From Acidobacteriota bacterium (GTDB taxonomy: Bacteria; Acidobacteriota; Blastocatellia; RBC074): DNA of 64,000 nt. Location of the stretch: contig JACPYM010000037.1 of assembly GCA_016196035.1 (NCBI GenBank), forward strand, positions 1 through 64,000, read 5' to 3'. The notes beneath the pieces are model-generated. The model was not told the origin of the DNA, ran no database searches, and saw only the letters and a program-made list of their open reading frames with translations. The translations under genes and the position numbers were made by a program. Positions 23,821 through 43,665 of the stretch are shown here, piece after piece (position 1 is the first letter of the stretch; every line of letters begins with the position of its first letter).

Positions 23821-23897
23821 TTACTCAATCATCCTCAATCGGCATGGTGTCGGATCAACTGCAACAAGTAATGGCCTAGTTATTCCTGCAAATGAAA
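23821..23897 (-). pseudogene. severed C-terminal codons of the HerA gene
   Basis: Read on the minus strand in the right phase after a CTAG, this encodes SFAGITRPLLVAVDPTPC followed by RLRMIE and TAA (23823-23821). This is the expected C-terminal end of HerA/DUF87-type ATPases. It is cut off from the gene body by the element at 23898-24016. Removing 115 bp (element plus one CTAG) restores one frame of 1,857 bases (618 codons plus stop). Confidence 0.9.
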
Positions 23898-24016
23898 CTA
23901 GTACTCCATCAAGCTCCATCAAGCTGAAAATGAGGGATGTAGGGCGGGATTTAATCCCGCCCTACATCCCGGATGCGCTCTCAGCATCCATCACTTACAG
24001 CTTGATGGAGTACTAG
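23898..24016. mobile_element. miniature inverted-repeat element inserted at CTAG (IS630/Tc1-like ends)
   Basis: The inverted ends CTAGTACTCCATCAAGCT (23898-23915) and AGCTTGATGGAGTACTAG (23999-24016) match over 18 bases, and CTAG is present on both sides. The core is an almost perfect palindrome: 18-base arms at 23934-23951 and 23953-23970 around GGGATGTAGGGCGGGATT. The net insertion is 115 bp. A CTAG target with central TA duplication is the known preference of IS630-type transposases, so I infer mobilisation in trans by such an enzyme. None is encoded in the window. Confidence 0.88.
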
Positions 24017-25792
24017 CGCCTGCCCCGGCGTTAGATTGGGCAACCGGTTCCACAAGCCTTCGTCTACGCTGCCGAGAGAGCGTTTAAGTCGGTTGATGAC
24101 ATTGACGTCCGCAATTTTGTGCAAAACGTAATTGTTGATCAGTCCCAAAACTTCGTCGGGTAAGTGTTGTGGTAACTGCGTTACGAACATCAGGCCCAGC
24201 CAACGTTTGCGTCCGCGTTTGGCAATGCGCTCGATTTGTTGGTGCAGCACTGGCATCTGCTTGATGCGCTCTTTGGAGAGGAACTCGTGCGCCTCTTCAA
24301 TCACCACGACAACCTTGCGCATTGGCTCACCCTTTTCGCTCGCCTGATAGTTTTCATCTTGCTGCAAATGCAACCCGCGTAGGATTTCAGAGATAGCTAG
24401 ATTGTTGATTTGCGGCGAATCTGTGTCGCTCAGATCAATAATAGTTATGCGACTTGGTTCGGTCATTGCCTTATAGTTCGGTGGCGCGGCTTGCGGATTG
24501 TCAAAAATCTTCAGCCGCAACAACCGACTTAAGCTGCCTTGCACTTTACGCCAACTGCCGATGTGCCCTGGCAGCTTGGATTCTTTGATGATTGCCTGAA
24601 TCTGCTTTGAATTCTCGCGTAGCGGCTTTACTTGTAAATAATTGAAGTCATCCGATCCCTCCACCGTGTCAGCACACATCCGCACAATCTCGTACATCAT
24701 CTGCAAAATCAGGCGCGGATAACCCTGTTCCATTTCATCCAACTCAAACACTTTCTCTTCGTCGGCTTTGCTAAAAGGGTTGATCTTCGGATCGCGCATT
24801 AACCTGCGCGCGATGTCGTAGGCTTTTAGGAAGCGTTCCTCTTGTGCCGGGTTGAAGTCGAGAATCTCCATCACAGCATGTGGTGACAGATTCTCGTATT
24901 TCAGGCAGAACTCTTTGCGGTCTGCATATTGCGCATTGGTCGTCGCGCGTCCGACCAAATGATACAGGCCAACGTTCTTCACACCTTGTGGCGCCAAGCC
25001 GCGCTGCGCCAGCGCGGTCAGCATTACGGCGTCTTCCGTCTGCTGCATCATCTGCGTGTACTCGCCTTCCGTATCGAAGATGACCACCGCCACACCACTC
25101 GCGCCCAGCTTGCCAATCAAGCCGGAAACAGTGGTGGATTTGCCGCCGCCAGTCGTGCCGAGGATGCCGGTATGTCTGGGCAGCACGTCTTTGCGTGCCG
25201 TCGAAAACGAGACCAGCACGCTCTCGTAGCCAACCGCCAGCCCAATCGTCACATCGCCGAGCAAGCGCAAGCGCTCCGCCGTCTCCGCTTCACCGATCAC
25301 AAAGACCGGGCTGTTGGGCAGCGGACGAAAGCGCGGCGGCACGAGTTTGTCCTCAAACTCTTCGCCGAGAATTTCCGCCTGCACGCGCCCATGATAACGC
25401 GGTGTAAAGGTCGCCCCACGCACCGTCGTGGTGACGACCAACGGCGCATCGGCGCGCAACCCGTCCGGCTCGGCAAAAGGCCCTTCGACAACGGCGGCCA
25501 CATACTGCCGCCCGTCGCCACCTTTGCTAAGGGGGCGGCTCTTGATGCGCACGAGCGATTGCGAGGGCACGCTGCGAATCTCTTCAGCAGGCAACAGAAT
25601 CGTCACCGTATTGTCCTTACTGGCGGGCATGTCGTACATCGTGCGCCCGACCGCGCCTTGAAACGCTTTGTCCTCCTGCCACGCGCCGCCTGCCAGGTTG
25701 ATCTCTTCGTCCAGCAAGCCGACAAACTCGCCTGGCATGGTTGGTACGGCAGCGTCGCTGTTTGCGAGTCCATTACTTTGCGGTTGATCCAT
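23981..25792 (-). CDS. HerA-type DNA-translocating ATPase (DUF87), C-terminus replaced by an element
   Basis: A 603-residue hexameric-helicase-like ATPase. Seen: N-terminal HAS-barrel-like region, Walker A GTTGGGKSTTV near residue 215, Walker B with VVVIEEAHEFLS near 500, and a later arginine-finger region RIAKRGRKRWLGLMFVTQ. HerA pumps DNA and, with NurA, resects DNA ends; bacterial relatives also occur in defence loci. The start has GGAGG 5 bases upstream and lies 2 bases after the NurA-like stop. The last 9 residues (LHQAVSDGC) come from the inserted element and replace 24 native ones. In HerA structures the C-terminal tail braces neighbouring subunits, so the hexamer may be weakened. Activity is uncertain. 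Confidence 0.85.
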   Translation of the reverse strand: MDQPQSNGLANSDAAVPTMPGEFVGLLDEEINLAGGAWQEDKAFQGAVGRTMYDMPASKDNTVTILLPAEEIRSVPSQSLVRIKSRPLSKGGDGRQYVAAVVEGPFAEPDGLRADAPLVVTTTVRGATFTPRYHGRVQAEILGEEFEDKLVPPRFRPLPNSPVFVIGEAETAERLRLLGDVTIGLAVGYESVLVSFSTARKDVLPRHTGILGTTGGGKSTTVSGLIGKLGASGVAVVIFDTEGEYTQMMQQTEDAVMLTALAQRGLAPQGVKNVGLYHLVGRATTNAQYADRKEFCLKYENLSPHAVMEILDFNPAQEERFLKAYDIARRLMRDPKINPFSKADEEKVFELDEMEQGYPRLILQMMYEIVRMCADTVEGSDDFNYLQVKPLRENSKQIQAIIKESKLPGHIGSWRKVQGSLSRLLRLKIFDNPQAAPPNYKAMTEPSRITIIDLSDTDSPQINNLAISEILRGLHLQQDENYQASEKGEPMRKVVVVIEEAHEFLSKERIKQMPVLHQQIERIAKRGRKRWLGLMFVTQLPQHLPDEVLGLINNYVLHKIADVNVINRLKRSLGSVDEGLWNRLPNLTPGQALVLHQAVSDGC

Positions 25793-25794
25793 CT

Positions 25795-26664
<870 letters not shown>

Positions 26665-26763
26665 GCCGTCACAGGCTTCGACGCAGTTGTTAGATCAACG
26701 TCAGCCTTAGTTTTGTGACTTGCCAATGAGTTTAGGCTCAGGTGATCGAAGAATGAAGAAGGC

Positions 26764-27060
26764 TTATATCTCTTGATCGGCTTTCGAAAGCTGAATTTCA
26801 GTTATTCCGTAACCAGCGAGGTAAATATGATCCAGATGGAACTGAAGATATTTTCGATTTAGCCCGTGCTCGCGACAGACGCTGAGTCTTTGGCCTTTAC
26901 TGTGCTGTTCTTTATCAATCGCAAGTACTTCTAGGCTGGAAGGTACAATAGCTAAAACTCCCAAGTCCATCATACAGTGATGAGTTGGGCATAAGGCGAT
27001 GATATTACTCGCGTGATCTGGGCCTCCGTACTTCTTTCTAATCGAATGTATAGGTCCCAT
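26764..27060 (-). CDS. HNH nuclease domain, C-terminal fragment
   Basis: A 98-residue frame with the core of a zinc-type HNH domain: HSIRKKYGGPDHASNIIALC followed by PTHHCMMDLGVLAI. HNH domains nick or cut DNA. The frame overlaps by 91 bases, in a different phase, the preceding 144-codon frame. The first half of the HNH fold and a ribosome site are missing. A frameshift near 27050 that split one nuclease gene is the likely explanation. It may be a broken restriction-type enzyme, given the methylase next door. Confidence 0.6.
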   Translation of the reverse strand: MGPIHSIRKKYGGPDHASNIIALCPTHHCMMDLGVLAIVPSSLEVLAIDKEQHSKGQRLSVCREHGLNRKYLQFHLDHIYLAGYGITEIQLSKADQEI

Positions 27061-27404
27061 CTACCATCGCGCCTGTTTGATGGTTTCTGGCTTAGGAGCA
27101 CCTTGATCTGGCCGAACGGAATAAAGTATCTGCCATGATCACCGCAAAGCAGAACCATCCAGGCATGATCCTCGCTCCACTTGAGCATCTGAGCATATTT
27201 GGTTTTTGCCAGCGAGAACCAATAGTAGCCTCTCCGCTCATAGTAAGCCTGCGCGTTGTAGGCAATGAGGATACATTCTCGATTATCAACCACAAGGACG
27301 CTCTCACCTGTCTCCTTCACTTCTCCAAATCTTTCCAGGAAATTAGCCAGTTGCTGGATAGCAGTGGCACTCTCCTTAGTTCTTCCCGAAAATTTAATTC
27401 GCAT
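26970..27404 (-). CDS. unknown protein, probable N-terminal half of the split HNH nuclease
   Basis: A 144-residue frame with a good ribosome site (GGAG 7 bases before ATG). Its middle (WSEDHAWMVLLCGDHGRYFI, FGQIKVLLSQKPSN, DGRWDLYIRLE) resembles no family I can name with confidence. After RRDGRW the frame probably leaves the true protein, since the neighbouring frame continues as an HNH domain. Joined, they would make a protein of about 215 residues with an N-terminal recognition-like domain and a C-terminal HNH domain. That join is inference. Confidence 0.55.
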   Translation of the reverse strand: MRIKFSGRTKESATAIQQLANFLERFGEVKETGESVLVVDNRECILIAYNAQAYYERRGYYWFSLAKTKYAQMLKWSEDHAWMVLLCGDHGRYFIPFGQIKVLLSQKPSNRRDGRWDLYIRLERSTEAQITRVISSPYAQLITV

Positions 27405-27514: not shown

Positions 27515-28330
27515 CTACCCGTACTCAGGCACCGTCAGGAAATGGGCGCGGGTGTAATCAAGTGCGGTCACATAAGGCGGCGAGGTAAAAACCAAGTCTA
27601 TGGTCTCAGATCGCAAGCGTAATTTTCGCGCATCGCCCAAACGCGCTTCTACCTTTGCCGACGGGGCTTGAGCACAGAGCGTTTGAAATTCGTTGGCTTG
27701 TTTGCGCATCTGCTTGATGCGTTTGGCAAATTTCCCCAGCACGTCAGGTGGTTGCGTGTGCGCCTGGTAATGATGCCGAGAATGTATGATGTCGCGAGCG
27801 TTTGCGACGCTTGTTTTTGCCAGGATGAGCGAAGAAAAGGCCACCCAGAAAAATTCGCGTACTGGTTGAGTGGTTTCCAGATGCTTGATGTGCCAAGCCA
27901 ACAACGCCAGCGCATTCGCCACTTCCGGCAGGAACCAATAATCACGATTCACGAACTCCGGCAATTGCCCGCGCTGCTGCAACGCCCGTGTCATTCGATT
28001 GGTCTTCAAAGCGGCCAAATCGCGCATTGTCCGCGAGGCCAGAGCTTCGTAGGCGCGCTCAATCTCATTGTCATTCAACACCTGCGCTTTGACTTTGGCG
28101 ATGAGGCGGGCCAGTGGGTCAAGGTCGTAGCCGATGGCATGACGCCCCTTCAAACGCGCCTCGACCAGTGTTGTGCCACTGCCCGCCATTGGATCTAAAA
28201 CGGTTTCACCAGGCTTCGAGTAGTAGCGCAGCCCATAGCCAACCAATTGCGGTGGACATTTAGCTGCATACGTGTGTAGCCCGTGCGTGGCGTAACGTGT
28301 ATTTTGTCCTTCAAAATCAAGATTCGGCAT
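27515..28330 (-). CDS. DNA methyltransferase (SPPY type), C-terminally truncated
   Basis: A 271-residue AdoMet-dependent DNA base methyltransferase. AdoMet motif I is DPMAGSGTTLVEA (about residues 46-58) and the catalytic motif is TSPPY (about 250-254), which points to an N4-cytosine or N6-adenine enzyme. In relatives TSPPYVTALDYTRAH is followed by a further 80 or more residues of the catalytic and recognition region. Here the protein stops 10 residues later (FLTVPEYG), so it is probably dead. It heads the cluster methylase, split HNH nuclease, NurA-like protein, HerA, all on the minus strand. Confidence 0.82.
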   Translation of the reverse strand: MPNLDFEGQNTRYATHGLHTYAAKCPPQLVGYGLRYYSKPGETVLDPMAGSGTTLVEARLKGRHAIGYDLDPLARLIAKVKAQVLNDNEIERAYEALASRTMRDLAALKTNRMTRALQQRGQLPEFVNRDYWFLPEVANALALLAWHIKHLETTQPVREFFWVAFSSLILAKTSVANARDIIHSRHHYQAHTQPPDVLGKFAKRIKQMRKQANEFQTLCAQAPSAKVEARLGDARKLRLRSETIDLVFTSPPYVTALDYTRAHFLTVPEYG

Positions 28331-29728: not shown

Positions 29729-30021
29729 AACTGGTTCTCCTGGCAGGCCGGGTTGGGGTCTGCATCTTTAACGAATGGATGGTTTCATTCCCACGACCGT
29801 GCGGGCTGTTGCAATCAAAACTTGGGCGGTGCGTGGGGCGTTTGTTGATGTTTGCTGAATCGTCACCGAGGCTGCTGCGTCCTGTCTCTGGCGATCACCC
29901 TGATTGCCTCGCTACGATCCGGTCTGAGTAAGACGGGCGCACTATAACCATAGCGTCTGCACGGCACAAGCTTTTACCAGTGCGCGCCAAGTTTGGCGGA
30001 TAAATCTGGCGGAGCGGTTTT

Positions 30022-30199
30022 AGATCGGTTTTCACTTAGGTGTAGGGCAAAAGCTGCGCAGCGGGGCAGTACCGCGCGCGTGAGCAAGCGGAGCTTACGT
30101 CGTTGCGCCAGTCTGCCGTACTTGACGCGCCGCTTGCTCACGCGCGCGGTACTGCCCCAGCGCGGCGTGCCTACCGTACACGCAAATGAAAACCGATCT
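30022..30199. repeat. palindromic element, family 2 copy A
   Basis: 178 bp with ends AGATCGGTTTTCA and the complement TGAAAACCGATCT. Inside are long inverted arms (30063-30091 and 30130-30158) sharing the core CCGCGCGCGTGAGCAAGCGG. TA dinucleotides flank the ends. Its right edge supplies the TAG stop of the superoxide dismutase gene. Related copies lie at 44375-44442 and 45666-45846. The 290 bases to its left (29729-30021) hold nothing recognisable. Confidence 0.85.
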
Positions 30200-30938
30200 A
30201 GGTTGCCTTTAGTGCGTCCCAGGCTTTTTGCGCTTTGACATAACGGCGATTGATCTCTTCCCAACTCAGATTGGTCAGAAACGCGTCAATGTATTTGGCC
30301 GCCGCCGCGCCGTAATCCATCTGGTAGGCGTGCTCATACATATCCATCACCAGCAACGGCACGCTCGTCGGGGCATTATGCAGATGATCCCACGACCAAT
30401 AGTTGTGTAACTCGCCCGTGTGCAGATTGAGACCCAGCATCACCCAACCTGAACCGCCGCCCAGCGCCGCGCCCGTGCGTTTGAATTCGGCTTCCCACGC
30501 TTCATGGCTGCCGAACGCTTGTTTGAGGGCGTTCAAGACGTCGCCGCCCGCTTTGCCCTCGCCGCCCAACAGGCTGAAATAGATTTCGTGCAGGACGACC
30601 GAGCCGGTGCGCAACGCCTCTTCGCGCTTCAAATCGCCGTATACATACGCGGGCAAGTCTTTGTCGGTAGCCATCGCGGCCAGCCGCTGTTCGACGACAT
30701 TCAACGCCCGCAACGCGCCGCTGTAATTGTTTTCCCAATGCGAGCGGATCAGTTTTTCAGAAATGCCTTTCAGCTTGGCCGGATCAAACGGCAGCGGTTT
30801 GATTTGATGCTGTCCGGCAAAGGCTTTTGGCACTGCCGCCGGTTGTCGGGCGAACGCCACAGCGTTTTCGGCCAGCAGCAAACCAGTACCGCCACCGATT
30901 AACGCCGCCAAGGCCTCACGTCTAGCAATTGCTTTCAT
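30198..30938 (-). CDS. superoxide dismutase, Fe/Mn family, exported
   Basis: A 246-residue enzyme that dismutates superoxide to O2 and H2O2. Visible metal-site segments: [22 protein letters not shown], and [15 protein letters not shown] with the metal Asp and His; WVMLGLN is also typical. Unlike cytoplasmic members it has an N-terminal extension [20 protein letters not shown] with a twin Arg and a hydrophobic stretch, so Tat export is likely. The ATG overlaps the RND adaptor stop (TGATG), with GGAGG 6 bases upstream, so the two are co-translated. The stop codon coincides with the edge of a palindromic element. Confidence 0.92.
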
Positions 30939-43603: not shown

Positions 43604-43665
43604 GCTAGCTGTTGGATGCTAGATGCTGGAAAAAAAACACTAGCATCTAGCATCCAACAGCTAGC
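43604..43665. repeat. palindromic repeat, 24-bp arms
   Basis: GCTAGCTGTTGGATGCTAGA (start of the left arm, 43604-43627) is exactly complementary to the right arm at 43642-43665, around an A-rich loop of 14 bases. It sits between yebC and recU, 8 bases before the recU start, and could attenuate transcription or mask the ribosome site. Confidence 0.8.

Follow-up and report, generated by a model that had tools for sequence, protein, structure and literature searches.

In the 64,000-nt stretch of DNA analyzed in this study (hereafter the window), a HerA-type ATPase gene is interrupted close to its 3′ end by a short palindromic element, and the gene that accompanies it has lost its 5′ end. We consider it probable (roughly 85%) that a non-autonomous miniature inverted-repeat element (MITE) was inserted in trans by a DDE-type transposase into a CTAG site of the HerA gene with duplication of 4 bp, that the shortened product is probably unstable or inactive, and that the two-gene module is decaying. 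Ordinary damage by a mobile element to a decaying module is the most likely account of the event. It offers a clean case, with uninterrupted alleles in relatives, of damage to protein genes by a miniature element that has multiplied recently, in a bacterial class that has received little study, and it defines a family of CTAG-targeting elements with 4-bp duplications. The features of the locus are listed in Table 1.

Table 1. Features of the interrupted HerA-type locus, in window coordinates.
Feature	Position	Strand	Remarks
HerA/DUF87-type ATPase gene, present form	23981..25792	-	603 aa; last 9 residues (LHQAVSDGC) encoded by the element
Native HerA 3′ end beyond the element	23821..23897	-	Remainder of the split codon, then 24 codons (SFAGITRPLLVAVDPTPCRLRMIE) and the stop TAA
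Miniature inverted-repeat element	23898..24016		119 bp with the two 4-bp CTAG repeats counted; one of 53 complete genomic copies
Target duplication CTAG, copy 1	23898..23901		Length of 4 bp deduced from the non-CTAG copies (CTAC/CTAC, GTAG/GTAG)
Target duplication CTAG, copy 2	24013..24016		4 bp, as in copy 1
Left terminal inverted repeat TACTCCATCAAGCT	23902..23915	+	Inverted-repeat analysis
Right terminal inverted repeat TACTCCATCAAGCT	23999..24012	-	Inverted-repeat analysis
10-bp tandem duplication, CCATCAAGCT x2	23906..23925	+	Left end; in this copy only (1/53)
Perfect 18-bp hairpin inside the element	23934..23970		Inverted repeat and fold
HerA partner gene, 5′-truncated	25795..26684	-	Homology to four relatives begins at ~26684

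The Interrupted HerA-Type Gene and Its Uninterrupted Relatives

The present 603-aa frame matches PF01935 (DUF87; 75.5 bits, 8.6e-21, cut-off 23.2) and PF05872 (HerA C-terminal; 39.5 bits, 3.6e-10, cut-off 22), both above the curated cut-offs. An earlier note on this DNA had proposed that the frame runs into a palindrome and ends in nine residues encoded there, and the analysis confirmed both points; the present protein does not have the complete C-terminus of its relatives, the nine element residues replacing 24 native ones. When 115 bp are dropped and one CTAG is kept, the gene returns to 1,857 nt, the 24 lost residues are restored and the split codon again reads V. The arithmetic of the earlier reconstruction (115 bp removed, 1,857 bases left) was exact, although its 619 codons include the stop, so that the gene consists of 618 codons plus TAA. 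The same note held that a shortened HerA is still made, which agrees with the open frame, and the evidence extends as far as that frame.

Among the named genomes scanned, a Blastocatellia MAG carries an orthologue (L111; JAEUQN010000158.1). Its HerA gene is uninterrupted, encodes 618 aa in 1,857 nt, equal in length to the reconstruction, and is 86% identical to the window HerA. Both severed parts of the window gene match this single gene in BLASTN, on either side of the element; the severed 76 bp and the corresponding L111 tail share 84% identity (E = 2e-17), and the L111 tail SFAGMTRPLLVAIDPTPCRLRMIE differs from the reconstructed one only by I/M and V/I. A class-wide search returned a protein 100% identical to that of L111 (G004, presumably the same genome), together with three further uninterrupted relatives of ~68%, 66%, and 53% identity, in all of which the tail is clearly homologous. 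The uninterrupted allele that the note had suggested seeking has thus been found several times over, the severed 24 codons are the true HerA tail as it had supposed, and the relatives carry this tail rather than ending naturally in LHQAVSDGC. The tails of the window gene and L111 differ by 10 synonymous and two non-synonymous changes, a pattern like that of the gene body; the HerA tail was therefore under constraint through most of its past.

The Element and Its Family

The window copy is 119 bp long and the family unit 109 bp, the whole excess being the 10-bp duplication in one end; the length of 119 bp given earlier is therefore right for this copy but not for the family. Apart from the duplication, the copy has zero substitutions against the majority sequence. 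Together with the mostly synonymous differences in the tail, this makes the recent insertion claimed in the earlier note plausible, but a tight dating is not supported. The element ends are perfectly complementary over 18 nt, CTAG included, and the predicted fold is far more stable than those of shuffled sequences (z = -13.9).

Element copies were counted in the readable loci of the 9.59-Mb genome (139 contigs). At least 53 complete copies are present, 39 of which are letter-identical at 109 bp, and further copies that are partial or cut by contig ends lie outside this number; the search for other copies that had been recommended thus gave many. The standard copy has a 101-bp core with ends TACTCCATCAAGCT. 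The family shows several features of MITEs: it is short (109/119 bp), has no coding gene of its own, carries terminal inverted repeats, and occurs in 53 dispersed copies with direct repeats, and the uninterrupted HerA orthologue represents an empty site.

Since both flanks of the window copy belong to the same gene in the correct phase and the copy carries a private 10-bp duplication, it is extremely improbable that the interruption is an assembly artefact in which two loci were misjoined through the 109-bp repeat, even with 53 near-identical copies in the genome and several contigs ending inside the element. An assembly chimera was rejected on the first of these grounds.

Related elements with similar CTAG-TACT ends and CTAG flanks were identified in a congeneric genome (L092, L094, and L096), and another, with TTAG as one flank, in a different genus of the family (L129); the genome itself contains two CTAG-bounded relatives of greater divergence (L155 and L156). 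A phylum-wide scan for the element end sequence gave only isolated single matches outside this genome, and a search of a plasmid collection gave zero matches. Among the matches listed in viral contigs, apparent inverted partners had 2–3 mismatches and look like chance pairings. The elements form a new family, but both their kind and their effect are well known.

Several further observations concern palindromes and CTAG sites. A contig from another genus of the family (L113; G005 contig 103) breaks off in an element with the end CTAGTACTTCATCAAGCT..., and this element may be a copy of some longer parent. CTAG is scarce in the window, with 38 occurrences against ~238 expected from base composition and 46 from trinucleotides, which indicates that the element targets a scarce site. 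A second and larger family of miniature elements is represented in the window at 30020–30201, by a copy with ends GATCGGTTTTCAC / TGAAAACCGATC, 74-nt arms of 80% complementarity, and TTAG and CTAG as flanks. A flank of the 109-bp element resembles an end of this second family, with CTAG common to both, in five of the 53 copies (L002, one of the five, is a weak match). A palindrome bounded by CTAG (CTAGCTGTTGGATGCTAGATGCTGG...) lies at 43605–43664.

Target Duplication and Transposase Type

CTAG stands on both sides of the window copy, as had been noted earlier, and of 51 of the 53 copies in total, which is compatible with 2-bp and 4-bp duplications alike. The two exceptions, otherwise of majority sequence, have CTAC on both sides (L064/L043) or GTAG on both sides (L074). 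These direct repeats indicate that the target duplication is 4 bp, a length that rests on these two informative copies.

The earlier note had assigned the insertion to the IS630 type. A miniature element of IS630/Tc1 type that duplicates only the TA inside CTAG would fit the 51 CTAG copies equally well; the 107-bp pneumococcal RUP with IS630-Spn1 offers a bacterial precedent (PMC2229807), and DDE_3 genes are present in the genome. Such an origin is nonetheless unlikely, because a TA duplication with fixed ends would demand an extra, coincidentally matching mutation in each of the CTAC/CTAC and GTAG/GTAG copies. In addition, the IS630-type transposase with the same ends that the note had proposed to look for did not emerge, the three DDE_3 (IS630-type) regions of the 139-contig assembly having ends unlike those of the element. 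IS630 parentage was accordingly rejected on the length of the duplication and the different ends at the DDE_3 loci.

The DDE_Tnp_1 (PF01609, IS4/IS5-type) loci of the assembly do not carry the element ends either, so that neither the DDE_3 nor the DDE_Tnp_1 loci of the 139 contigs yielded a parent transposase. The IS701 family has a CTAG-like target preference. The element shows the 4-bp, CTAG-like target duplication of IS5-group and IS701-type elements, from which we infer a transposase of the IS5 group or an IS701-like one rather than IS630. IS5 is reported to duplicate 4-bp target sites such as CTAG and CTAA (PMC11677980), and IS701 members to generate target duplications of 4 or 5 bp (PMC8024623).

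Other Genes Hit by the Element

When their flanks are joined, several other copies prove to sit inside long open frames. Pfam domains point to a kinase/GAF protein (L018), a Kelch protein (L012) and an amidohydrolase (L044), which are clear cases of broken genes with the two sides joined in frame, and to a TPR protein (L025). One match in the Kelch protein spans the site, as does the match in the amidohydrolase. For many other copies, no long frame crosses the site. The HerA case is one of several gene-damaging insertions in this genome.

The Partner Gene and Its Neighborhood

The partner gene lies directly upstream of HerA, and this pairing is kept in all relatives examined. In four relatives (L111, G500, G307, and G478), the partner protein has more than 100 extra N-terminal residues leading to the motif VEACDG (VEAADG in one), whereas homology of the window protein begins abruptly at this motif, with no start codon in frame ahead of the ATG at 26664. 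Compared with its relatives, the window protein lacks ~127 N-terminal residues, and this part was found nowhere else in the genome assembly. The earlier reader missed this truncation. The HerA–partner module therefore bears two lesions, i.e., the element insertion at the 3′ end and the 5′ loss of the partner, and the present 603-aa HerA and its 289-aa neighbor are damaged forms that are unfit as annotation references.

In the four relatives, the partner carries a VEACDGT-like motif. The context allows the guess that it is a NurA-like nuclease; searches of Pfam, NCBIfam, and PADLOC gave no convincing match, no solved relative was found, and the structure model was too poor for use.

The breakpoint that replaces the partner N-terminus (26684–27404) is adjoined by two short minus-strand frames, at 26764–27060 and 26970–27404, the former of which has an HNH-like look (RKKYGG..HASNIIALCPTHH). 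An N6/N4 DNA methylase-type gene (PF01555) lies near the HerA pair at 27515–28330; its domain is only partly matched, and this gene may therefore also be incomplete. In L111, genes for an HTH-like protein and an IrrE-type peptidase precede the HerA pair (484–1682), and no BLASTN match to either was seen in the window.

Proposed Mechanism and Consequence

The insertion itself, the 4-bp direct repeats, the 53-copy family, the intact alleles and the truncated partner are observed. In the mechanism that we propose, a DDE-type transposase would have acted in trans on the non-autonomous element and inserted it at a CTAG near the 3′ end of HerA, with duplication of the 4-bp target. Translation would now enter the element, add nine residues and stop, at the cost of the last 24 native residues. 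Solved HerA structures can be aligned with the tail as far as residue 605–612. The lost residues hold the conserved terminal segment of the ATPase fold and, because this segment is missing, the 603-aa HerA is, judging from its sequence, probably unstable or inactive. The HerA lesion and the 5′-truncated partner together point to a two-gene module in decay.

The frame is open through the junction, and miniature elements joined in frame to protein-coding genes have been reviewed (PMC2229807); the shortened HerA with its element-encoded C-terminus might accordingly be functional and kept, with the element serving as the donor of a protein tail. We regard this as improbable, since all relatives keep a strongly conserved C-terminal tail, solved HerA structures can be aligned with part of this tail, and the partner gene is truncated too. 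It is very unlikely that the element family both silences genes and donates in-frame tails genome-wide, with a HerA fusion that is kept and functional. Damage to a decaying module thus remains our preferred reading.

Comparison With Known Systems

Sulfolobus HerA (4d2i) and bacterial HerA structures have the DUF87 and HerA_C domains in common with the window protein, and the alignment extends into the C-terminal tail; against the described HerA types, the window protein scores far under the NCBIfam equivalog cut-offs. Escherichia coli IS5, of the IS5 group, produces 4-bp duplications at CTAG-like sites, as observed here, but the element has no transposase. The IS701 family shows target duplications of 4 or 5 bp, and the element may be likened to it in duplication length and in its CTAG-like target.

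Similar to the element, the IS630-Spn1-related RUP of Streptococcus pneumoniae is short (~107 bp), has many copies and terminal inverted repeats, and is presumably mobilized in trans (PMC2229807). However, RUP targets TA, whereas the element described here has different ends and a 4-bp duplication (CTAG, rarely CTAC or GTAG). ERIC/IRU and the Yersinia and Rickettsia palindromic elements are likewise palindromic miniatures, able to form in-frame parts of protein genes (PMC2229807). They differ from the present element in sequence, host, and target, and in the HerA gene the host frame stops inside the element.
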